From the NCBI RefSeq assembly GCF_028292945.1, contig NZ_JAQGLJ010000044.1:1-50845 (forward strand): a stretch of DNA of 50,845 nucleotides, read 5' to 3'. Origin of the DNA: Sphingomonas bacterium. GTDB taxonomy: Bacteria > Pseudomonadota > Alphaproteobacteria > Sphingomonadales > Sphingomonadaceae. Position numbers and translations under genes: made by a program. How positions within the stretch are numbered: position 1 is the first letter of the stretch; the number at the start of each line of letters is the position of its first letter. The notes below the pieces were generated by a model that saw only the letters and a list, made by a program, of their open reading frames with translations, made no database searches and had not been told where the DNA came from. This document shows positions 16,648 through 50,845 of the stretch, one piece after another.

Positions 16648-18675
16648 ATGAACGACGGCACCTTCCTCCAACGCTTGCGGCGCGACACGCGCGGCAACAC
16701 GCTTGCCATCATGGCGGCGACGCTTGTTCCGCTGTGCGGCGTCGTGGGTGGCGGCATCGATGTCGGCCGCATGTACATCGCCAAGACGCGGCTGCAACAC
16801 GCCTGCGACGCGGGCGCCCTCGCCGGGCGCAAGGCGATGGGCGGTGGTACGTGGGCGCAGACGGTCAACGGGGTCGCCGAATACCCCCGCGTATCGGCCG
16901 AGCGCTTCTTTGACGCGAACTACAAGGCTGGCTCCTACGGGTCCGCCGATCTGGCGAAAAGCTTCACCGAAGCCGGAGGAAAGGTTTCCGGCACCGCATC
17001 GGTCAATCTGCCGATGACGCTGATGCGGGTCTTCTCGATCGACACGCAGCCGCTGTCCGTCACCTGCGCCAGCGAGATGCGTCTGCCGAACACAGATATC
17101 ATGTTCGTCCTCGACACTACCGGGTCGATGGCGGAGACGCCCACGGGCGACACCCAGACCAAGATGGCGAGCCTCAAGGTCGCGGTGAAATGCTTCTACG
17201 AGATCGTCGCGAAGCTCGACACCGCAGCCAACTGCACCACCGGCGCGCCCGCGGGTGGCACGGGTTCGCAGACGCAGATCCGCTTCGGGTTCGTGCCCTA
17301 CGCGACCAACGTCAACGTCGGCTATCTGCTGAAGCCCGAATGGCTCGCCGACAGCTGGAAATATCAGTCGCGCGAACCGGAATGGACGGCGACGACCACT
17401 TACACCTACCCACCGTACTCGGGCACCCCGGGTCCGTCTTCGAGCACCACGGGAACGTGGAGCGCCTACGCAAATAGCTCCACCACGGGGCAGACGACCA
17501 GCGCACAGACCTGCACGGCGCCGGCGGACGACCAGTCGCAAAGCTCCAGCACGACCAACTCGGCGGTCGCGCAAAGCGGCACAACGCGCACCTACACCAG
17601 CACCACGACTGTCTCGACAACGTACAATCGCTATACGTCGTCTTCGGTGCAGAGCGGCTACGGTTCCGACCGGCGCTATTATTGTCAGATCAAGAAGAGT
17701 TCGAAGACGGATACCAGCACAACCTCGACCAACTATTCGTCGCAGGGGGTGCCCACGACCACCAACAGCTTCAGCCGCTGGCACTACGGTCAGATCGCGC
17801 AGAACATCGCCGGGCTGAAGAACGGCACGTCCTGGAACTCCGGTATCACCCTGCCGATCGGCAGCAGCGGAACAGCCAAGTACATCGGCTGGGACGGCTG
17901 CATCGAGGAGCGCGAGACGGTGCGGGCGAGCAGCTACAACCCGATCCCTAGCGGCGCCTACGACCTCAACATCGATCTGGTCCCGACGTCCGGCACGGCC
18001 AGCAGCCTGTGGGGTCCGGCGCTGCCCGGCATGCTGTACGCGCGCAAGGACAGCAGCGGCAACTACACACTCACCGACCAGTACACGGCCACCGAATACA
18101 CCAACGATTCCAGCTATTCCTGCCCCACGGCCGCCAAGAAGCTGCAGGCCTGGACCAATGCATCCCTCTTCGACAGCTATGTCGATTCGCTGAGCCCCAG
18201 CGGCAACACCTACCACGATATCGGGCTGATCTGGGGTGGCAGGCTGATGTCGCCGACCGGCATCTTCGCGTCGGAGAATGCGCTTACGTCCGCGGGCGGC
18301 GCCATCGAGCGCAACCTGATCTTCATGACGGACGGCGACCCATGCACCAGCATCGCCAACTACCAGGCCTATGGCTTCCCTTATTACGATCGACGTCAAA
18401 CCGATCCGGCCGCAGTCCCCAGCGACGGCTGCACCACCAATGGCACGCTCACCCAACAGGTGAACGCGCGTACCGAGGCCCTGTGCTCCGCGATCAAGAA
18501 CAAGAACATCACGCTGTGGGTGATCACCTTCGGCACGCTGGATGCGAACACCAACACGCGGATGACGAACTGCGCCTCGCCCGGCCGCTACTTCTCGGCG
18601 ACCAACGCGGCCACGCTCCAGTCGACGTTCCAGTCGATTGCCAACCAGATCTCGCAATTGAGGCTCACGCAATGA
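16648..18675 (+). CDS. TadG-like pilus assembly protein with VWA domain
   Basis: A 675-residue protein with the Tad N-terminus: a basic RRDTRGN stretch, then a hydrophobic helix (TLAIMAATLVPLCGVVGGGI) and DVGRMYIAKTRLQHACDAGA, the prepilin-like Flp/TadG start. The von Willebrand A domain begins at IMFVLDTTGSM, giving the metal-binding DxTxS motif at D156-S160. Residues about 245-375 form an exceptional serine/threonine/tyrosine-rich insertion, then the VWA fold resumes with IFMTDGDPC and LWVITFGT. It is anchored in the inner membrane facing the periplasm. First of three genes joined by ATGA overlaps. Function in pilus or surface adhesion is from the family; no secretion ATPase or secretin is nearby. 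Confidence 0.88.
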   Translation: MNDGTFLQRLRRDTRGNTLAIMAATLVPLCGVVGGGIDVGRMYIAKTRLQHACDAGALAGRKAMGGGTWAQTVNGVAEYPRVSAERFFDANYKAGSYGSADLAKSFTEAGGKVSGTASVNLPMTLMRVFSIDTQPLSVTCASEMRLPNTDIMFVLDTTGSMAETPTGDTQTKMASLKVAVKCFYEIVAKLDTAANCTTGAPAGGTGSQTQIRFGFVPYATNVNVGYLLKPEWLADSWKYQSREPEWTATTTYTYPPYSGTPGPSSSTTGTWSAYANSSTTGQTTSAQTCTAPADDQSQSSSTTNSAVAQSGTTRTYTSTTTVSTTYNRYTSSSVQSGYGSDRRYYCQIKKSSKTDTSTTSTNYSSQGVPTTTNSFSRWHYGQIAQNIAGLKNGTSWNSGITLPIGSSGTAKYIGWDGCIEERETVRASSYNPIPSGAYDLNIDLVPTSGTASSLWGPALPGMLYARKDSSGNYTLTDQYTATEYTNDSSYSCPTAAKKLQAWTNASLFDSYVDSLSPSGNTYHDIGLIWGGRLMSPTGIFASENALTSAGGAIERNLIFMTDGDPCTSIANYQAYGFPYYDRRQTDPAAVPSDGCTTNGTLTQQVNARTEALCSAIKNKNITLWVITFGTLDANTNTRMTNCASPGRYFSATNAATLQSTFQSIANQISQLRLTQ

Positions 18676-19286
18676 TGCGCCGGTCGTTCCGCCGGCTGCG
18701 CCGCGACTGCCGCGGCGCGACGATCGTCGAATTCGGCTTCGTCGCACCGGTCATGGCGCTGTTCCTCGTCGGCGCGTTCGACATCGGGCACACCTTGTAC
18801 ATGCGCGGCGTCCTGCAAGGCATCGTGCAAAAGATGGCCCGGGACTCCAGTCTTGAAACCGGCACCAGCGCGTCGGCGCAGACCGCGTTCAACAATCGGG
18901 TCCGCGACCAGGTGCTGGCGCTTCACAAGGGCGCGGCGGTCACCTTCAGCCGGCGCTTCTATCGCACCTTCTCCGCCGCCGCCGCCGCGCTGGCGGAGGT
19001 GTGGACCGTCGATACCAACGGCAACGGCGTCTGCGACGCGGGCGAGCCGTTCACCGACCGCAACAACAACGGCGTCCGCGATCTCGACGGCGGCGACAGC
19101 GGCCAGGGCGGCGCGATGGACCGGTCGCTCTACACCGTCACGGTGAACTATCCCCGCATGCTGCCGCTCGACAAGTTCATCGGCGGCTCCGGCACGACGA
19201 AGATCACCGCCAGCACCATCCTCCAGAACCAGCCCTACAATGATCAGGGCAGCTATGGCGCGGCGACGACGGGATATTGCCCATGA
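18672..19286 (+). CDS. TadE-like pseudopilin with EF-hand-like repeat
   Basis: A 204-residue protein with the TadE signature: basic start, RGATIVEFGFVAPVMALFLVGAFDIGHTLYMRGV, where the glutamate five residues into the hydrophobic helix is the conserved prepilin residue. The middle contains DTNGNGVCDAGE and DRNNNGVRDLDGG, which look like a calcium-binding EF-hand or dockerin-type loop pair, an unusual insertion for TadE. The ATG overlaps the stop of the TadG-like gene and its own stop overlaps the next start, so the three are one operon. Likely a minor pilin or assembly factor processed by a TadV-type peptidase encoded elsewhere. Confidence 0.85.
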   Translation: MMRRSFRRLRRDCRGATIVEFGFVAPVMALFLVGAFDIGHTLYMRGVLQGIVQKMARDSSLETGTSASAQTAFNNRVRDQVLALHKGAAVTFSRRFYRTFSAAAAALAEVWTVDTNGNGVCDAGEPFTDRNNNGVRDLDGGDSGQGGAMDRSLYTVTVNYPRMLPLDKFIGGSGTTKITASTILQNQPYNDQGSYGAATTGYCP

Positions 19287-40947: not shown

Positions 40948-41847
40948 ATGACCGCCCTGACCCACCTCCAGCGCCTCGAGGCGGAGAGCATCCACATCCT
41001 GCGCGAGGTGGTGGCGGAGGCCGAGCGGCCGGTGATGCTGTACTCGGTCGGCAAGGACTCCGCGGTCATGCTGCACCTGGCCAAGAAGGCGTTTTTCCCC
41101 GCCCGCCCGCCCTTTCCACTGTTGCATGTCGATACGACCTGGAAGTTCCGCGCGATGTACGCGCTGCGCGATCGCGCGGCGGCGAGTGCGGGGATGGAGC
41201 TGATCGTCCATCGCAACCCGCAGGCCGAGGCCGATGGCATCAATCCCTTCGACCACGGCTCGCGCCACACCGATCTGTGGAAGACCGAAGGGTTGAAGCA
41301 GGCACTGACGGCGGGCCGCTACGACGCGGCGTTCGGTGGTGCGCGGCGCGACGAGGAGGCGAGCCGCGCCAAGGAGCGCATCTTCTCGTTCCGCTCGGCC
41401 GCGCATGCGTGGAACCCGAAGGCGCAACGGCCCGAGCTGTGGCGGCTCTACAACGCGCGCATCAATCCGGGCGAGAGCATGCGTGTGTTTCCGCTGTCGA
41501 ACTGGACCGAGCTGGACGTGTGGCAGTATATCGCGGCCGAGGGCATCGAGATCGTGCCGTTATACCTCGCCGCGCCGCGCCCGACGGTGGAACGTGACGG
41601 CATGATCCTGATGGTCGACGACGATCGGTTTCGTCTGCGCCCCGGCGAGGTGCCGGTCGAGCGCTCGATCCGCTTTCGGACGCTGGGTTGCTATCCGCTG
41701 ACCGGCGCGGTGGAGAGCGAGGCCGCGGACCTGCCCGCCATCATCGCCGAGATGCGCGCCTCCACCACGTCCGAACGTCAGGGGCGGGCGATTGATCGTG
41801 ATCAGGCCGCGAGTATGGAGAAGAAGAAGCGCGAGGGGTATTTCTGA
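40948..41847 (+). CDS. cysD: Sulfate adenylyltransferase, small subunit
   Basis: A 299-residue subunit of ATP sulfurylase that adenylates sulfate to APS. The PP-loop is SVGKDS at residues 33-38; other family blocks are [18 protein letters not shown], the [10 protein letters not shown] region, [21 protein letters not shown] and [17 protein letters not shown]. The serine-valine-glycine loop replaces the more usual SGGKDS as in other CysD proteins. First gene of the operon; its stop overlaps cysNC as TGATG. Confidence 0.96.
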
Positions 41848-43760
41848 TGATTGCTCCCCTCCCGCTCGCGAGGAAGGCCGACCTACCTGCTCCCTCAAGC
41901 GACAGGGGGACGGCTGGCACTCTCCTCCGCTTCATCACCTGTGGCTCGGTGGACGACGGGAAGTCGACGCTGATCGGGCGATTGCTGCACGATACGCGCG
42001 CGATCGCGTCGGACCAGATGGCGCAGCTGGCGACCGACTCGCGCAGGGTCGGTACGCAGGGTGACGCGCTCGACCTGGCGCTGCTGGTCGACGGGCTTGC
42101 GGCCGAGCGCGAGCAGGGCATCACGATCGACGTCGCCTACCGGTACTTCTCCACAGAGCGCCGCAGCTTCATCGTCGCCGATACGCCCGGACACGAGCAA
42201 TATACACGCAACATGGTGACGGGCGCATCGACCGCCGACCTGGCGATCATCCTGATCGACGCACGCAAGGGGGTGCTGACGCAGACGCGGCGGCACAGCT
42301 GGCTGGCGCATCTGATCGGCGTCCGCAGCCTGGTGCTGGCGGTCAACAAGATGGACCTGATCGGCCACGATCAGGCGCGCTTCGACGGGATCGTAGCCGA
42401 TTACCGCGCCTTTGCGGACTCGATCGGGATCGCGGCGGTGACCGCGATCCCGGTATCGGGGCTGACGGGCGCCAATGTGATCGCGCCCTCTCCGGAACTG
42501 GCCTGGTACACCGGGCCGACGCTGCTGGCGCATCTGGAAACGGTGCCGGTGGACACCGACCGCGCCGCCGCCGGGCCGTTCCGGATGCCCGTGCAATGGG
42601 TGAACCGACCTGGCCCCGAATTTCGCGGGTTCGCCGGGATGATTGCGAGCGGCACCGTGCGGCCGGGCGATGCAATTCGGGTGGTGCCTTCCGGACGGAT
42701 GAGCACGGTGGCGAGGATCGCTGGCTTCGACGGCGACCGGGAGTTTGCTCGCGCGGGCGAGTCGGTGACGCTGCTGCTTGCCGACGAGGTTGATTGTTCG
42801 CGCGGCGACGTCATCGCCGCCGCCGACGACGCGCCGGAATCGGGGCACCATTTCTCCGCGACGCTGGTGTGGATGGACGATGCGCCGCTGGTGCCGGCAC
42901 GCGGCTATCTGCTGAAGCTCGGTACACAGACGGTGGGCGCGACGATCGCGCCGCCCGCTTACGTGGTAGACGTCAACACGCAAGCCGAGCTGCCCGCGAC
43001 GACGCTGCGCCTCAACGACATCGGCATCGCCGACGTGCGTACCGACCAGCCGATCGCGTTCACGCCTTATGCCGAGGGCGCTGACCTGGGCGGGTTCATC
43101 CTCATCGACCGCGATACCAACGCGACCGCCGCCGCCGGCATGATCCGCCACGCGCATCGCCGCGCGACGAATGTGCATTGGGAAGCGGCGCAGGTGACAC
43201 GCGAGGCGCATGCCCGGCAGAAGGGCCAGGTCGCGAAGGTGCTGTGGTTCACGGGGCTGTCCGGCGCGGGCAAGTCGACCATCGCGAACCTGGTCGAACA
43301 GCGGCTGCACGCGCTGGGTCGGCACAGCTTCCTGCTCGACGGCGACAACCTTCGCCACGGCCTCAGCCGCGATCTGGGCTTTTCCCCCGCGGATCGCGCA
43401 GAGAACATCCGCCGGGTGGGCGAGGTGGCCAAGCTGATGACCGAGGCCGGGCTGATCGTACTGACCGCGCTGATCTCGCCGTTCCGGGCCGAACGCGACG
43501 CGGTGCGCCAGCTGCTGCCGCCGGGCGCGTTCATCGAGATCTTCGTCGACGCGCCGCTGGAGGTGGCGGAAGCTCGTGACGCCAAGGGGCTGTACGCCAA
43601 GGCGCGCTCCGGCGAGATTGCGGAGTTCACCGGCATCTCCAGTCCGTATGAAGCGCCGCACAGCCCCGACATCCGGGTGGACACCACGCGTGAGAGCGCG
43701 GAAGCGGCGGCGGCGCGGATCGTGGAGCAGGTGATCGGGATATGGAGCTACGACCTTTAG
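41847..43760 (+). CDS. cysNC: Bifunctional sulfate adenylyltransferase subunit 1 / APS kinase
   Basis: A 637-residue fusion. The CysN GTPase (about 25-440) has G1 GSVDDGKST at 33-41, [17 protein letters not shown] and NKMDLIG; it uses GTP hydrolysis to drive sulfate adenylation by CysD. The CysC domain (about 445-637) has its own P-loop GLSGAGKST near 470-478, [20 protein letters not shown] and the APS-binding [20 protein letters not shown], and phosphorylates APS to PAPS. Fusion is common in proteobacteria. The stop region overlaps the cysQ start by 19 bases. Confidence 0.97.
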
Positions 43761-44491
43761 GCGATGCTGCCCTGGCGCGGGAGCTCGCGGTGCAGGCTGG
43801 CGCGCTGTTGCTCGCGATCCGTACGCGCGGAGGCGTGACCGGCGCTGCGCTGGGCGCGCGGGGCGACCGTGAGGCGGACGATCTGATTTTAGCGGCACTG
43901 CGCGTGGCGCGGCCGGACGACTTCATCTTGTCGGAGGAAACCACCGACGATCGCAGGCGCTGTTCGGCGAGCCGGGTGTGGGTGATCGATCCGCTCGACG
44001 GAACGCGCGACTATGCCGACGGGCTGGACGACTGGGCGGTCCATGTCGGCCTGGCGATCGACGGCGAGCCGCGCATCGGCGCCGTGGCGTTGCCGACGCT
44101 GGGCCGCGTGTTCGCGTCCGACGATCCTCAGCCTGGTCTTGCGCCGCTTACAGACCGACTGCGCATGGTGGCCAGCCGCACGCGCTGTCCTCCGGTCGTT
44201 CATGGCGTCGCGAACGCGCTCGACGCGGAGGTGATCAGCATGGGGTCGGCGGGCGCCAAAGCGATGGCGGTGCTGGACGGGCGCGCCGACATCTACCTGC
44301 ATGCCGGCGGGCAATATGAGTGGGACAGTTGCGCTCCCGTCGCGGTGGCGCTGGCGGCGGGGCTGCATGCGTCGCGTATCGACGGCACGCCGCTGCGTTA
44401 TAACCGCGAAGACCCGTTGCTGCCGGATCTGCTGATCTGCCGACCGGAGCTGGCGGCAAGGGTGCTGGCGCTGGTGGCTCAGCTCGGCTGA
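43742..44491 (+). CDS. cysQ: 3'(2'),5'-bisphosphate nucleotidase CysQ
   Basis: A 249-residue inositol-monophosphatase-family enzyme that dephosphorylates 3'-phosphoadenosine 5'-phosphate, the by-product of PAPS use. Metal-binding motifs: EETTDD and [19 protein letters not shown], then the C-terminal [17 protein letters not shown]. The N-terminus overlaps cysNC, and the operon order cysD-cysNC-cysQ supports the assignment over inositol phosphatase. Convergent with the glycosylation operon: only 3 bases separate the two stops. Confidence 0.92.
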
Positions 44492-44494
44492 AGC

Positions 44495-45511
44495 TTACTC
44501 CGCCGCGAGCGATTCGGGTTCCCGCGCCAGTTCGCGCGCAAACCAGGCGCAGGTCTTCTCCAGCCCCTCGGCGAGTCCGACGCGCGGTTCCCAGCCGAGC
44601 AACGCCCGGGCACGGGTGATGTCCGGGCGACGGCGGCGGGGGTCGTCCTGCGGCAGAGGGCGATAGACGATGCGGTTGCGGGTGCCCGTCATCGCCACGA
44701 CCCGCTCCGCGAGTTCGGCGACGGTCAACTCGACCGGGTTGCCGACATTGACCGGCGCCAAGCCGTCGCCGTCGCTCTCCATCAGCGCGGTCAGCGCGTC
44801 GACCATGTCGGAGACGTAGCAGAACGACCGCGTCTGCGATCCGTCGCCGTACAGTGTGATGTCCTCGTCCGAGAGTGCCTGGCAGATCAGATTGGATACC
44901 ACGCGGCCATCGTCGGGGTTCATGTGCGGGCCATAGGTATTGAAGATGCGCGCGACGCGCACTTCCGCCCGGCCCATGCGCGCATAGTCGAACGCAAGCG
45001 CCTCCGCGGCGCGCTTGCCCTCGTCATAGCAGGCGCGCGGGCCGGTGCAGTTGACCGCGCCGCGATAGTCCTCCTGCTGGGGATGCACCTCCGGGTCGCC
45101 ATAGACTTCGCTCGTCGAGGTGAGCAGCAGCCGCGCGCCGCTCTTCTCCGCCAGGCGGAGCAGGTGGTTGGTGCCGACGACGTTGGTCAGCATCGTGTGC
45201 TCGGGATCGGCCTGATATTGCGGTGGCGAGGCGGCGCAGGCGAGATTGTAGATGCGGGTGAGGCGCCCTGCCTCTCCCGTGACGGCGGTCGGCAGCGGGT
45301 TGACGATGTCCGCCTCGACGAAGCGGAACCCCGGCCGCCCCTGCAGCAGACTGAGGTTCGACGGGCGCGAGGTCTGGAGGTTGTCGAGGCAGATGACCTC
45401 GTGGTCCTGATCGAGCAGCCGCAGGACCAGGTGCGAGCCGATGAACCCGGCGCCACCGGCAACCAGCGTGAGTGGATTGGACAAGCGAGCGTTCCCCTGT
45501 TTGCTGTTCAT
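44495..45511 (-). CDS. NAD-dependent epimerase/decarboxylase, UDP-xylose synthase-like
   Basis: A 338-residue extended SDR with the NAD motif GGAGFIGSH at 19-27, NLACAASPPQYQADPEHTM, LLTSTSEVYGDPEVHPQ, the catalytic CYDEGKRAAEAL and RIFNTYGPHMNPDDGRVVSN. These blocks are those of UDP-glucuronate decarboxylase, which makes UDP-xylose; RfbB-like dehydratases differ in the region after the catalytic tyrosine. It is the last gene of a six-gene minus-strand chain and starts at an ATGA overlap with the preceding glycosyltransferase. The product would supply a sugar for those enzymes; the exact reaction is inferred. Confidence 0.87.
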   Translation of the reverse strand: MNSKQGNARLSNPLTLVAGGAGFIGSHLVLRLLDQDHEVICLDNLQTSRPSNLSLLQGRPGFRFVEADIVNPLPTAVTGEAGRLTRIYNLACAASPPQYQADPEHTMLTNVVGTNHLLRLAEKSGARLLLTSTSEVYGDPEVHPQQEDYRGAVNCTGPRACYDEGKRAAEALAFDYARMGRAEVRVARIFNTYGPHMNPDDGRVVSNLICQALSDEDITLYGDGSQTRSFCYVSDMVDALTALMESDGDGLAPVNVGNPVELTVAELAERVVAMTGTRNRIVYRPLPQDDPRRRRPDITRARALLGWEPRVGLAEGLEKTCAWFARELAREPESLAAE

Positions 45512-46587
45512 GCCGCGCGCACGAGCGTGCGACGCGGCCGCGCCGTAGCGGCGGTGAGGTGATCGTCGAGCTCGGCCGCCCGGTGCATCGCGGTGTGCTC
45601 GGCCAGTACGCGAGCTCTCCCTGCTTCGCCGACGGCGGCGGCATCGGGGCGATCGAGCGCGGCGAGCACGTCGGCCGTCGTGTCGGCCAGCACGATCTCG
45701 CGACCCGGTTCGAACAGCCGGTCGAGACCGTCCCACCGGTCGGAGACGATCGGCGTCGCGCAGGCGGCGGCTTCGAATAACCGCACCGATGGCGACCAGC
45801 CGCGCGCGATCATGTCCGCGCGGGTGACGTTGAGCGTCCAGCGCGACGCGGAATAGAAGGCGGCGTGCTCGGCCGGGGGGAGATGGTCGATGCGCTCGAC
45901 GTTGACGGGCCAGTCTATGTCGGCAGGATATTGCGGCCCGGCGACCACGAAGCGCTTGTGCGGGGCCAGGCGGGCGACGTCGATCAGTAGCCGGGTCAGC
46001 GTCGGCTGGCGATCGTCGCTGTAGGTGCCGAGATAGGATAGATCCCAGCGCTTGGCCGCGCCGGTCGGCCGGTACTCGGCGGGATCGACCGAGCAGTAAA
46101 GCGCGCGCGCGACGGGCGAACCGTATTGCGACTCCAGGTGCGCCAGCGTGGGACCGCCGGTGAACGAGAGATACAGGTCATAGCCGGGGATGAGATCGGC
46201 CGAGAGATATTCGGCGTCGCCACGCGCCAGCTTGGCCAGCGTGACGGGGGTATCGATGTCGTAGAACGCAATCGCGCCGGTCGCGGTACGTTGCACGAAG
46301 CGACCGACCGCGACGCCATCGGGCACGTAGGAGCCGACGATCACCGCATCGGCGCGCGCGATCTCGCTCTTCCAGCACTGTAGCTCGTCGAGGTCGCGGT
46401 ACAGCTCCAGCCGGCACCAATCGGGATCGGGCAGGTCGCGATGCGGCGCGTACCAGGGCACGTCGCGCTCGAGGAACAGCACGTCATGTTCCCGCGCCGC
46501 GAACGCCTTGAGCAGCGCGCGGAACGTGGTCGCGTGGCCGTTGCCCCAGGACGAGCTCAGCGAAAGACCAAGGACGACGAGCTTCAT
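45508..46587 (-). CDS. CgeB-like glycosyltransferase, third of three
   Basis: A 359-residue protein with a GT-B-type Rossmann start (MKLVVLGLSLSSSWGNGHAT) and a C-terminal nucleotide-sugar half with WSPSVRLFEAAACATPIVSD followed by RWDGLDRLFEPGREIVLA, the RxFEAA motif of the CgeB/Glyco_trans_1_2 group. DLSYLGTYSDDRQPTL is also typical. Cytoplasmic or membrane-associated; donor and acceptor unknown. ATGA overlaps at both ends bind it to its neighbours. It is a paralogue of the next two genes upstream, with low identity but the same motif order. Confidence 0.85.
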   Translation of the reverse strand: MKLVVLGLSLSSSWGNGHATTFRALLKAFAAREHDVLFLERDVPWYAPHRDLPDPDWCRLELYRDLDELQCWKSEIARADAVIVGSYVPDGVAVGRFVQRTATGAIAFYDIDTPVTLAKLARGDAEYLSADLIPGYDLYLSFTGGPTLAHLESQYGSPVARALYCSVDPAEYRPTGAAKRWDLSYLGTYSDDRQPTLTRLLIDVARLAPHKRFVVAGPQYPADIDWPVNVERIDHLPPAEHAAFYSASRWTLNVTRADMIARGWSPSVRLFEAAACATPIVSDRWDGLDRLFEPGREIVLADTTADVLAALDRPDAAAVGEAGRARVLAEHTAMHRAAELDDHLTAATARPRRTLVRAA

Positions 46588-47696
46588 GCGGCCTCCCGCG
46601 CTCGGGCGACATGCTCACGGAACAGCTTGTCGACCTGGACGCCGCGCAGATCGTAGGTGTGCTCGGCCAAGACGCGCTTGAGCGCCGCCTGGCCGATGCT
46701 GCGGGCGCGCTCGGGCGTAAGCCGTTGCAGGTGTTCGGCGACATCCTGACCGTCGCGCGCGACCAGCACCTCCTGATCCGGGATAAGGAACTGCTCGATG
46801 CCCTCCCAGGCATCGGTGATCAGGCAGGCCGCGGCACCGGCGGCTTCGAACACGCGCGTCGCTGGCGAGAAGCCGATATGCGCCATCGAGTCGCGCGCGA
46901 CGTTGAGCACGGCGGCCGGCGTGCAGTTGAAGGCGTTGTGCTCGGCGGTGTAGACATGACCCCGGTGGCGAACGTTGGCCGGCATCGCCTTGGTTTCCCA
47001 GCCATTCCCGCCGATCAGGAAGCGCCGGTCTGGCAGCGCGGCGGCGGCGCGGAGGAAGAACTCCTCGACGCGCGCCTCGCGATCGGGGAGACGGTTGCCG
47101 AGGAACGCGAGGTCGCAGGCGAAGCGCTCGTCCGGGGCGACTGGGTGGTGGGTCTGCGGGTCGAGTGCGTTGTAGACCGGGATGCACTGCTTGGCGCCGA
47201 AGCCGAGATAGGCGTCGATCACCGGCGGACCGCCGCCATAGGTCAGCACCATGTCGAGCTCGTCGAGCGCGCCCAGCACCGGGTGTCCGGGATCGCTGCG
47301 CATCTCGTCGAGCGTCGCGGCGGCGTCGACATCCCAGAAGATCTTCAGCGCATGGGACGCAGCCTGGTCGAGCACGCCCTCGAGCAGCTCGCGGTCGAAC
47401 ACGCCGACGCCGCTGGCCTTGACGACGATGTCCGCCCTGCCCGCCTCCGCCAGAACGGAGCGCAAGCCGTCGGCGGTGGCGGGGTAGACGACGACCTTGG
47501 CGTAAGCGGGCGGATCGATGTCGCGGTGCTGCTGGCGATCGAAGGCGTCGGGCTCGTAGAAAGTGATGTCGTAGCCATGTCCGGCGAGCGCGCGCAGGAT
47601 GCCGCGGTAATAGGTGGCGGCGCCGTTCCAGTAGGAGGATAGGAGGCTGGAGCCGTAGAAGGCAATCCGCCGTCCTGAGCCTGTCGAAGGGTTCAT
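46584..47696 (-). CDS. CgeB-like glycosyltransferase, second of three
   Basis: A 370-residue paralogue of the neighbouring genes. The Rossmann start is RRIAFYGSSLLSSYWNGAAT, the middle has DLAFLGNRLPDREARVEEFF, and the C-terminal motif is FSPATRVFEAAGAAACLITD then AWEGIEQFLIPDQEVLVA. The first seven residues (MNPSTGS) are encoded by CTTCGACAGGCTCAGGA, a short sequence that looks like a common extragenic palindromic element, so the annotated ATG may sit on a repeat; it does overlap the upstream stop as ATGA, which supports it. Donor and acceptor unknown. Confidence 0.85.
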   Translation of the reverse strand: MNPSTGSGRRIAFYGSSLLSSYWNGAATYYRGILRALAGHGYDITFYEPDAFDRQQHRDIDPPAYAKVVVYPATADGLRSVLAEAGRADIVVKASGVGVFDRELLEGVLDQAASHALKIFWDVDAAATLDEMRSDPGHPVLGALDELDMVLTYGGGPPVIDAYLGFGAKQCIPVYNALDPQTHHPVAPDERFACDLAFLGNRLPDREARVEEFFLRAAAALPDRRFLIGGNGWETKAMPANVRHRGHVYTAEHNAFNCTPAAVLNVARDSMAHIGFSPATRVFEAAGAAACLITDAWEGIEQFLIPDQEVLVARDGQDVAEHLQRLTPERARSIGQAALKRVLAEHTYDLRGVQVDKLFREHVARAREAA

Positions 47697-48799
47697 GCGG
47701 CGCTTCTTTCGGGAAGATCGAGCCGGGCGGCGATGGCGAGCAGCTCGGCGGCGCGATGGGCGCAGGTGTGGCGAGCGAGGATTGTTTCGAGACCCGAGGC
47801 GACTAGTTCGGCGCGTGAGTTGGTATCCTCACGCAACATATTAAGATCGTCCCGAACTTGGCCGCCATCGCGCGCAACCAGATAGTCCTGACCGGGGCGG
47901 AACAGACCTTCGCTGTCCGCCCACGGTGCAGAGATCAGCGGGATGCCGCAGGCCAGCGCCTCGAAGACGCGGATGGTGGGGATGCCGGGCAGGATGGTGG
48001 CGTAGTAGCGGCGAGGTACGTGGACGGTTGCCAAAGCGCGCGCGAACACCTCCGGCGCACGGGCGTTGGGGAGCCAGCCGTGATAGCCTGCGCCGTAGCG
48101 CGCGAGCAGCGCCTTGGCCTCGTCAGGATAGCGGACGCCGTAGACATCCAGCCGCATTCCAGCAGCTTGTGCCGGGTTCAGCAGAAATTGCTCGAGCTCC
48201 GCGGTGCGTTCGCCATCGCCCCAGTTGCCGATCCAGACGACGCCTTCCCGCGTCTGTTCGACAACAGGCGGCTGGAACAGGCGAGTGTCGGCCGCTTCGT
48301 GCCAGGTCCAGACCCGGCCACCCCACCCCCAGCCGCGATACACCTCTGACAACGTCTCACCGAAGGCGAGCACGCCGTCATAACCGCTGAGATCAAAGGC
48401 CTTCATCTCGTGCGGGGCGCTGACGGCACGATGGTGCGTGTCGTGGAACAGGAGGCGGAACCCGCCGCCGCGCTTTCGCAAACCGCCGAGCGCCGCAACC
48501 AGCGCGGGTTCGTTCCATTCGTGAACGATGACGAGATCGGCACCTTCCACCAACGCGGCCGCATCGGCGTCCGCGGCGTAGGTTTCCGGCACAAGATCCG
48601 GGTAAGCGTTACGGAATGCGACCAGACCTGCCTCACCGGCATCGGCGAAGAGATTGTCGAGACTCCAGTTCGTCTCCGGTTCAAGGGCGCGGACCTGATG
48701 CCCCATCGCCTGCAACTCGCGGAGCACACCGCGCAGAAAATGCGCGTTTCCGTGGTTCCAGCACGAGCGCAGCGAGTGAGTGAGGTAGGTGATCCTCAT
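47693..48799 (-). CDS. CgeB-like glycosyltransferase, first of three
   Basis: A 368-residue paralogue: MRITYLTHSLRSCWNHGNAH at the start, LVIVHEWNEPALVAALGGLR, LFHDTHHRAVS, GVVWIGNWGDGERTAEL, and the C-terminal IPTIRVFEALACGIPLISAP plus LFRPGQDYLVARDG. The histidine-rich HDTHHR segment after the first domain is a feature not seen in the other two. ATGA overlaps with the GT4 gene before it and the second CgeB-like gene after it. Donor and acceptor unknown. Confidence 0.85.
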   Translation of the reverse strand: MRITYLTHSLRSCWNHGNAHFLRGVLRELQAMGHQVRALEPETNWSLDNLFADAGEAGLVAFRNAYPDLVPETYAADADAAALVEGADLVIVHEWNEPALVAALGGLRKRGGGFRLLFHDTHHRAVSAPHEMKAFDLSGYDGVLAFGETLSEVYRGWGWGGRVWTWHEAADTRLFQPPVVEQTREGVVWIGNWGDGERTAELEQFLLNPAQAAGMRLDVYGVRYPDEAKALLARYGAGYHGWLPNARAPEVFARALATVHVPRRYYATILPGIPTIRVFEALACGIPLISAPWADSEGLFRPGQDYLVARDGGQVRDDLNMLREDTNSRAELVASGLETILARHTCAHRAAELLAIAARLDLPERSAA

Positions 48800-49962
48800 G
48801 CCGCCGCCCTGACCGGCTCAGCGAGCAGCGCGCGGTAGATCGCGAGCGTTCCCGCCGCCATCGCCTCGACCGTGTAGCGCGCAGCACGGGTGCGGGCGGC
48901 CTCGCCGAGATGCGCGCGCAGGCCGGGATCGGCGCGTACGCGCTCGATCGCGGCGACCCAGGCGGTGGGATCGTCGCCGCCAACGAACAGCGCCGCGCCC
49001 GTCCACAGCTCGCGGAACGTGTCGATGTCGGACAGGATTAGCGGGCAGCCGGCCTGCGCAGCTTCCAGCACCGCAAGTCCGAATGGCTCGAACCGGGCGG
49101 CGGAGACGAAGATCGGCCCGGCCGCATATTCGCCGGCCAACGCATCGACGTCGAGCGTACCGACCAGGTGGAGATGCTCGGGCGCGATGCTCTCGCCATG
49201 GGGTCCGGTGACCGGACCGGCGGCGCGCAGCGGCGCGGGCAGCCGCGCGGCGACGGCGTCGAGCAGGCTTGCGTTCTTCGCCCGATCCCACAAGCGCCCG
49301 GCGGTGAAGACATGGTCGGCCGACGCTCCGGACGGTGCCATCGCCAATGCCCGGCCGTTGTGAACGGTTACCGGGGTGGCGGGCAGGTCGTAGTGGCGTT
49401 GAACGGCGGCGGCGTAGCTGGCGCTGGGGGCGATCACCGCGTCAGCGGCGAGCAGGCCCGCGAGCATCAACTGCCGGTGCCAAGCCAGCTCCGCGGGCGG
49501 CGCGCTGCCGTCGGTGGCGGCGAACCAGGTGCCGACGCAGCCATGCGCGACCGCGACGACGGGCGCGGGAAACGGCCCGCCGGCGGCCAGCGCGGGGGCG
49601 TTGAGGTGGACGAGATCGACGCGATGGTCGGCGGCGAGCGCCGCGATGGCGCGACCGGCGTTGAGGACGTCGTCGGGGCCGGTGGCGAGCCAATCGAGGG
49701 GGAGATTGGTGCGGATCAGCTGTATACCGTCATGCCGGCCCTGAGCCGGCATCCAGGCCCGACCGGAGCGCGGTACTTCGTTGCCGAGCTCGTCGCTCGG
49801 AACCACGCTGGACCCCGGCTCAAGGCCCGGATGACGGGCTTCGTCAAACGGCCCCAGCACCACTAGCACGACCTCGACGCCCTGCCCCATCAGCGCGCCG
49901 GCCAAGTCGCTGGCGTATTGCCACACGCCGCCGACCGCGTCGCAGGTCATCAGGACCTTCAT
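48796..49962 (-). CDS. GT4-family glycosyltransferase with in-frame repeat insertion
   Basis: A 388-residue GT-B enzyme starting MKVLMTCDAVGGVWQYASDL. The donor-binding half has VFTAGRLWDRAKNASLLDAV and the E-x7-E motif EPFGLAVLEAAQAG, both typical of retaining GT4 enzymes. Residues about 42-79 (RHPGLEPGSSVVPSDEL through AWMPAQGRHDG) are not glycosyltransferase sequence: they are the translation of a palindromic repeat, placed after the second strand of the N-terminal domain and before IRTNLPLDWLA. The frame stays open, so a full-length protein can be made, with the insert as a surface loop. ATGA overlap with the upstream epimerase. Confidence 0.88.
   Translation of the reverse strand: MKVLMTCDAVGGVWQYASDLAGALMGQGVEVVLVVLGPFDEARHPGLEPGSSVVPSDELGNEVPRSGRAWMPAQGRHDGIQLIRTNLPLDWLATGPDDVLNAGRAIAALAADHRVDLVHLNAPALAAGGPFPAPVVAVAHGCVGTWFAATDGSAPPAELAWHRQLMLAGLLAADAVIAPSASYAAAVQRHYDLPATPVTVHNGRALAMAPSGASADHVFTAGRLWDRAKNASLLDAVAARLPAPLRAAGPVTGPHGESIAPEHLHLVGTLDVDALAGEYAAGPIFVSAARFEPFGLAVLEAAQAGCPLILSDIDTFRELWTGAALFVGGDDPTAWVAAIERVRADPGLRAHLGEAARTRAARYTVEAMAAGTLAIYRALLAEPVRAAA
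49727..49837. repeat. Palindromic repeat, family B, inside a glycosyltransferase gene
   Basis: Left arm CCGTCATGCCGGCCCTGAGC then CGGCATCCAGG (49727-49757); right arm CTGGACCCCGGCTCAAGGCC then CGGATGACGG (49808-49837). The arms are close to complementary and enclose a loop of about 50 bases. It shares its ends (GTCATGC, GCATCCA, TGGACCCCG, TGACGG) with the element at 25029-25133. It is 111 bases long, a multiple of three, and has no stop codon in the coding frame. Confidence 0.85.
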
Positions 49963-50845
49963 GACGCCAGCCGCTCCAATTCGGCCGGGCCTTCGGGGGC
50001 GATCAGCAGGTTGAGGCGGCGTTCGGCGGCCAGCCACTTCGCCAGGGTCGCGACGCCTTCGCGCCACGGCAGTTTGGGTCCGAGTCCGAGCGCGGTCTCG
50101 GCGGCGCGCGTGTCGGCGACGAAATAGCGTTGGTCGCCTGCGCGCCAGTCGCTCCAGTCGATGTCGACGTCGTGGCCGACCAGCGTCTCCATCTCCGCGA
50201 TCAGCTGCCGCAGCGAAACCGCGTTGTCGGGACCGCCGCCCAGATTGAACGCCCGGCCGCTCACCGCGTCGATGCGCCGCCACGCCGCGAGATATGCCTC
50301 CACCGCGTCGGACACGTCGAGGATGTCGCGGACCTGATAGCCGTCGCCGAAAAGCGTGATCGGCTTGCCCTCGAGCGCGCGGATGAGAAAGTGCGCGACC
50401 CAGCCCTGGTCCTCGGTGCCCATCTGACGCTGGCCGTAGATGCAGCTCATCCGCAGCACGCAGGTCGGCACGCCGAAGCTGCGCGCATAATCAAGGACAT
50501 ACTGGTCGGCCGCGCCCTTCGACACTCCATAGGGGGTGTGGAAGTCAAGCGGTCGCGCCTCGCCGATACCATGCGCGCGGATGGCGGGATCGGTCGGGAC
50601 ATACGCTTCGTCCTCAAGCGCGAAATCGAGGTCGGCAAGGTCGCCATAAACCTTGTTGGTCGAGGCGAAGATCAACGGGGTCCCGCCGCCCCCGGCGCGC
50701 AAGGCTTCGAGCAGCGCAAAGGTGCCGCCGATGTTGATCGCGAAGTCCTCCGCCGGATCGGACATGGACGTGGTGACGGCGACCTGCGCGGCGAGATGGA
50801 AGACGGCTTGAACGCCGGCGGCCGCAGCGGCGAGGCGGGCGTGGT
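49959..50845 (-). CDS. NAD-dependent epimerase, CDP-paratose 2-epimerase-like, N-terminus cut off
   Basis: At least 295 residues of an extended SDR, the NAD-binding start lying beyond the window edge. It reads VFHLAAQVAVTTSMSDPAED, then FAINIGGTFALLEALR, LIFASTNKVYGDL, the catalytic TPYGVSKGAADQYVLDYAR, and MSCIYGQRQMGTEDQGWVAHFLIRALEG with DGYQVRDILDV. STNKVYG and MSCIYGxxQxGTEDQGW are the blocks of RfbE-type CDP-paratose/tyvelose 2-epimerases, but other nucleotide-sugar epimerases share them. Its stop overlaps the GT4 start (ATGA). First visible gene of the glycosylation operon; the promoter is outside the window. Confidence 0.85.
   Translation of the reverse strand, partial: HARLAAAAAGVQAVFHLAAQVAVTTSMSDPAEDFAINIGGTFALLEALRAGGGGTPLIFASTNKVYGDLADLDFALEDEAYVPTDPAIRAHGIGEARPLDFHTPYGVSKGAADQYVLDYARSFGVPTCVLRMSCIYGQRQMGTEDQGWVAHFLIRALEGKPITLFGDGYQVRDILDVSDAVEAYLAAWRRIDAVSGRAFNLGGGPDNAVSLRQLIAEMETLVGHDVDIDWSDWRAGDQRYFVADTRAAETALGLGPKLPWREGVATLAKWLAAERRLNLLIAPEGPAELERLAS

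Follow-up and report, generated by a model that had tools for sequence, protein, structure and literature searches.

A glycosyltransferase operon of Sphingomonas is one arm of a conserved gene cluster that may assemble a methylated oligosaccharide on inositol

What do the glycosyltransferase genes at the end of a Sphingomonas contig make, and on which acceptor? The window analysed here is the whole of contig NZ_JAQGLJ010000044.1, 50,845 nucleotides long, and an initial annotation had described its last genes as a six-gene glycosylation operon—three tandem CgeB-like enzymes flanked by two nucleotide-sugar enzymes—with an unknown acceptor. We found that this operon is one arm of an 11–13 gene cluster, which also encodes a methyltransferase, a glycosidase, a phosphatase, dehydrogenases and often the inositol-phosphate synthase INO1. 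The cluster genes likely act as one unit. In our evenly balanced judgement, the operon is the glycosyltransferase arm, and the cluster assembles a short O-methylated oligosaccharide on an inositol-derived acceptor in the cytosol. Through its co-occurrence with INO1, the orphan operon becomes a pathway that can be tested, with inositol as the candidate acceptor.

The operon and the genes divergent from it

The window genes are on the minus strand, in the transcription order SDR2, GT4, CgeB-A, CgeB-B, CgeB-C and UXS (open reading frame list).

49959..50845, minus strand: SDR2, 3′ part (294 aa in the window), NAD-dependent nucleotide-sugar epimerase, nearest CDP-tyvelose 2-epimerase; 5′ end on contig C78
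48796..49962, minus strand: GT4-family glycosyltransferase, 388 aa, with an in-frame 111-bp palindromic repeat (Pfam)
47693..48799, minus strand: CgeB-A, PF13524 glycosyltransferase, 368 aa (Pfam)
46584..47696, minus strand: CgeB-B, PF13524 glycosyltransferase, 370 aa (Pfam and AlphaFold model)
45508..46587, minus strand: CgeB-C, PF13524 glycosyltransferase, 359 aa (Pfam)
44495..45511, minus strand: UXS-like UDP-glucuronate decarboxylase (UDP-xylose synthase), 338 aa (Pfam and nearest solved relative)
49959..49962, minus strand: ATGA stop-start overlap, SDR2 to GT4 (sequence)
48796..48799, minus strand: ATGA stop-start overlap, GT4 to CgeB-A (sequence)
47693..47696, minus strand: ATGA stop-start overlap, CgeB-A to CgeB-B (sequence)
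46584..46587, minus strand: ATGA stop-start overlap, CgeB-B to CgeB-C (sequence)
45508..45511, minus strand: ATGA stop-start overlap, CgeB-C to UXS (sequence)
50719..50845, strand not given: 127-bp exact overlap with the end of contig C78 (identical bases)

The six reading frames, and ATGA at all five junctions, were confirmed from the sequence. The operon has six genes in the window, but the run comprises at least seven, with SDR1 upstream on contig C78. We place C78 next to the window because the two share the 127-bp overlap, their joining gives an intact SDR2, and the relatives have the same gene order; the joined SDR2 is 359 aa long, as compared to 350–361 aa in relatives. This extension past position 50845, which had been proposed as a check, supplies the following genes.

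C78 (locus L009) 17679–18794, plus strand: SDR1, upstream of SDR2
C78 16898–17500, divergent from SDR1: histidine phosphatase
C78 16113–16898, divergent arm: TIGR04290 methyltransferase (359 bits, cut-off 300)
C78 15202–16116, divergent arm: glycosidase-like protein
C78, between the glycosidase and MDR: DUF1003 gene
C78 from 13687, divergent arm: MDR dehydrogenase
C78 12540–13529, divergent arm: Gfo/Idh/MocA dehydrogenase (Gfo)

Overlaps had been claimed throughout the operon. They are present at the five window junctions and absent from SDR1–SDR2, the sole non-overlapping junction of the run in this genome, because a palindromic repeat sits there. The repeat (L009 about 18807–18925) displaces an overlap kept in 55 of 57 relatives. 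Another of this kind, 111 bp long (window 49727–49837), is in frame inside GT4, where its 37 codons leave the reading frame unbroken. This repeat has a predicted fold of −73.6 kcal/mol, and 19 more partial matches are among those listed in the genome. Loci L058 and L105 have different inserts in the same region of GT4.

How are the individual enzymes identified? Pfam assigns one GT4 protein, two NAD-dependent epimerase/dehydratase proteins and three PF13524 proteins (119–137 bits, cut-off 25) among the window genes, and the pairwise identity of 32–33% among the last three bears out the description of divergent CgeB-like paralogues in a row. The AlphaFold model of CgeB-B (pLDDT 92.3) has 284 PDB matches at E ≤ 0.001, and the top listed ones are GT-B glycosyltransferases. 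By Foldseek, the nearest structures are ManT (TM-score 0.71, 14% identity), followed by sucrose-phosphate synthase, PglA, MshA and BshA. As modelled, CgeB-B has the GT-B fold, which is a likeness of fold and not of function. CgeB-C has a 50% identical paralogue on contig C97.

The transferases are indeed flanked by two nucleotide-sugar enzymes. The best match of UXS, by a clear margin, is UDP-glucuronate decarboxylase 1 (2b69; 335 bits, next class 140), and the enzyme is predicted to produce UDP-xylose. The 294-aa window part of SDR2 scores 219 bits against CDP-tyvelose 2-epimerase (next 104), while for SDR1, a nucleotide-sugar epimerase, no family member stands out as the nearest.

On the other side of the operon, and convergent to it, window 40948–44491 holds CysD and CysN/C (named by eye) and an inositol-monophosphatase-family gene, likely CysQ. 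Two roles for these genes, a link to sulfation and the use of the CysQ-like protein as an inositol phosphatase, were considered and dropped, since the genes did not turn up next to the clusters of relatives (one 41% CysQ match in 20 loci).

Gene order, overlaps and co-occurrence in relatives

Is the cluster a conserved unit? We compared 80 loci, the best 80 of at least 581 confirmed relatives in a scan with the methyltransferase alignment; the neighbourhoods are biased towards the methyltransferase. Contig ends and the 10-kb flank truncate some of them, with UXS affected most of all. The glycosidase is present in 75 of the 80 loci, the phosphatase in 61, SDR2 in 59, GT4 in 58, SDR1 and CgeB-C in 57 each, CgeB-A in 56, CgeB-B in 55, Gfo in 50, MDR in 47, INO1 in 41 and UXS in 39. 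In 75 loci, the glycosidase adjoins the methyltransferase. Where GT4 and all three CgeB genes are present, order and strand are kept in 50 of 53 loci, and the three exceptions are Roseomonas loci with the set split in two. A lack of conserved order had been named as grounds for abandoning the operon idea; the comparison gave the opposite outcome.

In order to offset the methyltransferase-based selection, we also searched with CgeB-A (E ≤ 1e-60). TIGR04290 is above its cut-off in 20 of 296 Sphingomonadales genomes, and the CgeB-A search returned exactly those 20, although shared ancestry lowers the independence of this agreement. The identical sets indicate that both arms travel together, even in genome G229, where the operon lies about 210 kb from the methyltransferase locus (L068) on the same contig. 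Regions of up to 20 kb were taken from 19 of the 20 TIGR04290 genomes and from one below-cut-off genome. SDR1, SDR2, GT4 and CgeB-A are beside the methyltransferase in 18 of 19 regions, in the order glycosidase–methyltransferase–(phosphatase), divergent from SDR1–SDR2–GT4–CgeB-A; the L051 contig stops within CgeB-A. Among the genes sought, the L068 region has just Gfo, the glycosidase and the methyltransferase.

The junctions are conserved as well. With closely related loci counted separately, a 4-bp NTGA overlap is found at SDR1–SDR2 in 55 of 57 relatives, SDR2–GT4 in 50 of 52, GT4–CgeB-A in 54 of 56, CgeB-A–CgeB-B in 50 of 52 and CgeB-B–CgeB-C in 50 of 53, and is less constant at CgeB-C–UXS (16 of 25). 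The divergent arm has such overlaps at phosphatase–methyltransferase (34 of 40) and methyltransferase–glycosidase (60 of 75). In the same loci, the overlap joins 426 of 535 cluster neighbours versus 86 of 354 same-strand non-cluster neighbours, and thus exceeds chance. (Gene starts, membrane segments and this base rate come from scripts that we wrote, and missed genes would escape the counts.) The first letter of the overlap varies among relatives—A, G or T—and the overlap is kept while this letter changes, which indicates selection on the overlap itself. Translational coupling, as initially annotated, is therefore plausible.

The cluster recurs in Sphingomonas, Sphingobium, Novosphingobium, Methylobacterium, Roseomonas and Paracoccus, genera that are common on plants, in air or in soil. 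In Methylobacterium, the loci with the operon run in a single direction and add a TIGR04295 B12-binding radical SAM gene (725 bits, cut-off 400; one protein tested, the rest by similarity), and L167 and L175 have the methyltransferase and phosphatase only. In some Rhodospirillales and Rubellimicrobium loci, the set is reduced and comes with a different GT4, a PIG-L deacetylase, a CgeB-C relative and a nucleotidyltransferase whose nearest relatives, at a weak 36 bits, are sugar-1-phosphate enzymes.

Inositol-phosphate synthase and the glycosidase

Which partner gene points to the acceptor? In many relatives, the gene between MDR and the glycosidase encodes inositol-phosphate synthase. Among the 296 Sphingomonadales genomes, 101 have INO1: all 20 cluster genomes versus 81 of the 276 others (p 1e-10, kinship ignored). 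Within the genus, the counts are 9 of 9 with the cluster versus 6 of 20 others (p 7e-4, kinship likewise ignored). INO1 is inside the cluster in 14 of the 20 genomes, in 13 as the sole copy, and the remaining six carry a copy elsewhere. In a phylum-wide sample, 12 of 14 TIGR04290 genomes have INO1 versus 24 of 384 others, and nine of the 11 TIGR04290 genomes outside Sphingomonadales carry it, in every case at most 3.5 kb from the methyltransferase. The acceptor had been left unnamed; these partner genes, INO1 above all, now suggest inositol as a candidate.

In the INO1 tree (85 rows, 67 of them cluster genes), the cluster genes form two deeply split groups, and the starred branches force at least two changes. 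Because of a long-branch warning, and because all non-cluster rows come from Sphingomonadales, the tree does not establish separate recruitment of INO1.

We next consider the glycosidase. Both of its glutamate motifs, NEP and T/S-E-V-G, are invariant in 35 family sequences, and the two glutamates are presumably catalytic. The AlphaFold model of the L118 protein (pLDDT 88.1) has eight strands; NEP directly follows strand 1, and strand 4 bears the second glutamate. The catalytic glutamates of clan GH-A lie three strands apart. The modelled strand order is non-standard for this clan, as it begins at the usual fourth strand. A sequential fold comparison was poor (TM-score about 0.35, root-mean-square deviation about 11 Å, GH99 enzymes first), and neither proved nor disproved a permutation. 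Therefore, a profile test was run with one set of seven sequences in two versions, unaltered as the control and with the parts reordered. In natural order, they give two swapped matches to PslG (200–295 to PslG 25–130; 4–154 to PslG 133–302) at E 4e-5. Once the C-terminal part is placed first, they give a single alignment to PslG 25–302, which includes both glutamate motifs, at E 6e-10. The natural-order profile of all 35 members reaches E 1e-6 and spans PslG 133–303 only.

PslG, a GH39 enzyme and a hydrolase of the Psl exopolysaccharide locus, thus shares both glutamate motifs with the cluster glycosidase across residues 25–302, but the latter has its parts in rotated order. By profile and model, the glycosidase appears to be a GH39-type barrel with a circular permutation; if true, this would by itself make it unusual among enzymes.

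Possible product of the cluster

How might these enzymes work together? The cytosolic methylated oligosaccharide is a reading of the gene set, in which inositol, rather than another component, is the leading candidate for the acceptor; each reaction below, and the order of the sugars, we infer.

Acceptor formation: INO1 would convert glucose 6-phosphate to inositol phosphate, and the histidine phosphatase would dephosphorylate either this compound or an early glycoside.

Glycosylation: GT4 would add the first sugar, and CgeB-A, CgeB-B and CgeB-C would add further sugars. The supply would consist of UDP-xylose from UXS and of sugars shaped by SDR1 and SDR2.

Modification: The TIGR04290 enzyme would methylate the product, and the permuted GH39-like glycosidase would trim or recycle it. 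The Gfo and MDR dehydrogenases may modify the ring.

It is possible, though doubtful, that alphaproteobacteria widely share an undescribed pathway to a glycosyl-inositol that is O-methylated and contains xylose. The product would be a cytosolic cyclitol oligosaccharide of a new class, with a natural circular permutation in the GH39-type glycosidase that processes it, and might protect bacteria that live on leaves, in lichens, in desert crust and in air.

Several observations weigh against this scheme. Fourteen of the 80 loci, all with both 10-kb flanks, lack the seven genes from SDR1 to UXS altogether, and L170 and L179 hold, of these seven, a CgeB-C relative only. GT4 scores 35 bits against the MshA model TIGR03449, far under its cut-off of 462.5, and the acceptance of inositol by GT4 is thus without support from this model. 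The resemblance of Gfo and MDR to inositol dehydrogenases is weak (92 and 106 bits; cut-offs 355 and 450). G550 and G596, two of the 14 TIGR04290 genomes of the phylum sample, lack INO1, and in the present genome INO1 lies outside the cluster. Finally, genes that fit a surface glycan occur near the methyltransferase in the 80 loci: pyruvyltransferase in 14, FrhB-like in 15, GT9-like in 29 and DUF6165 in 23.

The last observation bears on the strongest rival, that the cluster makes or modifies part of a surface polysaccharide, be it exopolysaccharide, capsule or lipopolysaccharide, with the polymerase, flippase and carrier enzymes elsewhere in the genome. We regard this as rather unlikely. It gains from the relationship of the glycosidase to PslG, and from contig C97 (L010 4586–6426), where the CgeB-C paralogue overlaps a nucleotidyltransferase gene beside genes that resemble exopolysaccharide genes by eye. 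That neighbourhood is less secure, however, because Pfam gives no match at E 0.001 for a frame that by eye resembled a flippase. In addition, by a simple hydropathy measure, no non-core gene inside the cluster has more than two membrane segments in the 54 loci with GT4, CgeB-A and CgeB-B, and the core query proteins have 0 or 1. The extra genes inside these 54 clusters are phosphatase variants, DUF1003, GT9-like, DUF6165, radical SAM and a few others, none of them a candidate flippase or polymerase. INO1 would also be unexpected among exopolysaccharide genes. The earlier interpretation retains its plausible coupling, its flanking sugar enzymes and its lack of a flippase or polymerase candidate, while its fixed product proportions and its stepwise addition of different sugars are conjectural and its single-operon view gives way to that of one arm in a larger cluster.

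Could the inositol instead be part of a lipid? In the present genome, INO1 is in an operon on contig C110 (L101 10727–13279), between a CDP-alcohol phosphotransferase gene and a nucleotidyltransferase gene whose best solved relatives are CTP:inositol-1-phosphate cytidylyltransferases (2xme, 4mnd). This arrangement suggests a CDP-inositol-derived solute or lipid. Since INO1 has this other evident use, its presence in this genome alone is no evidence for the cluster product. A glycan on an inositol lipid or sphingolipid, the bacterial counterpart of glycosyl-inositol-phosphate lipids, would agree with the C110 operon and with the glycosphingolipids that sphingomonads produce. We consider it improbable: the C110-type operon is also in G148 (by eye), but its INO1 group occurs in G132, G183 and G295 without TIGR04290, and CDP-alcohol phosphotransferases are multi-spanning, whereas the 54 clusters showed no such gene in their interior.

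A protein acceptor, for instance flagellin or a surface-layer protein, is very improbable in our estimate. Bacillus CgeB is linked with spore-surface glycosylation, and cytosolic O-glycosylation works without an oligosaccharyltransferase, but among the families present in at least four of the 80 loci, most of them unannotated, we saw by eye no flagellar, surface-layer or other acceptor. This explanation also leaves INO1 and the methyltransferase–glycosidase pair unaccounted for.

Which known systems resemble an inositol-linked oligosaccharide pathway? The mycothiol pathway consists of INO1, MshA, a phosphatase, MshB, MshC and MshD, and has inositol-phosphate synthase, a GT4 enzyme and a phosphatase in common with the cluster. 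For the INO1 of the L051 cluster, the only NCBIfam model listed is TIGR03450 (mycothiol_INO1), at 446 bits and thus below the cut-off of 638; this is one relative's protein. A PIG-L deacetylase is found in Rubellimicrobium and in a Rhodospirillaceae relative (L179 tested, L170 by eye), while none was noticed in the Sphingomonas clusters, where no model search for PIG-L, MshC or MshD was made. The cluster differs in that its GT4 fails the MshA model, and in having three CgeB-like transferases and UXS in addition.

To our knowledge, the mycobacterial gene clusters for 3-O-methylmannose polysaccharide (MMP) have no INO1, UXS or CgeB set. The MMP pathway is nevertheless the nearest functional analogy, with a likewise small cluster (ManT, MeT1 and MmpH) in which a glycosyltransferase, a sugar methyltransferase and a glycosidase yield a methylated oligosaccharide (PMC9883506). 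ManT is the top Foldseek match of the CgeB-B model, a likeness at the fold level only. MmpH is an endo-mannosidase (PMC9883506), as compared to the GH39-like, permuted glycosidase here.

The NCBIfam descriptions of TIGR04290 and TIGR04295, of which the methyltransferase and the Methylobacterium radical SAM protein are members, give no function. In openly licensed PubMed Central papers, we found no mention of TIGR04290, Rta_06860 or "CgeB family". Nor did these papers yield a homologous operon assigned to a known glycan, which the initial annotation had counted as an outcome against it. The words inositol and Rta_06 are absent from the available part of the main text of the Ramlibacter genome paper (PMC3164672), and the accessible part of a glycosyl-inositol review gives mycothiol and phosphatidylinositol mannosides as the bacterial cases (PMC11907402). 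In that openly licensed literature, the cluster is without a described product, yet it is widespread among environmental genera.

Two further features were seen at the loci of relatives. A protein family of about 575–580 aa lies beside the cluster in L161 (6877–8601) and in seven others of the 80 loci, and its L161 member has no Pfam or NCBIfam match. In L205 (15977–18019) and L209 (2950–5001), SDR2 is about 680 aa long and is apparently fused to a glycosidase-like domain, 29–32% identical to the cluster glycosidase; these loci belong to the two TIGR04290 genomes of the phylum sample that lack INO1.

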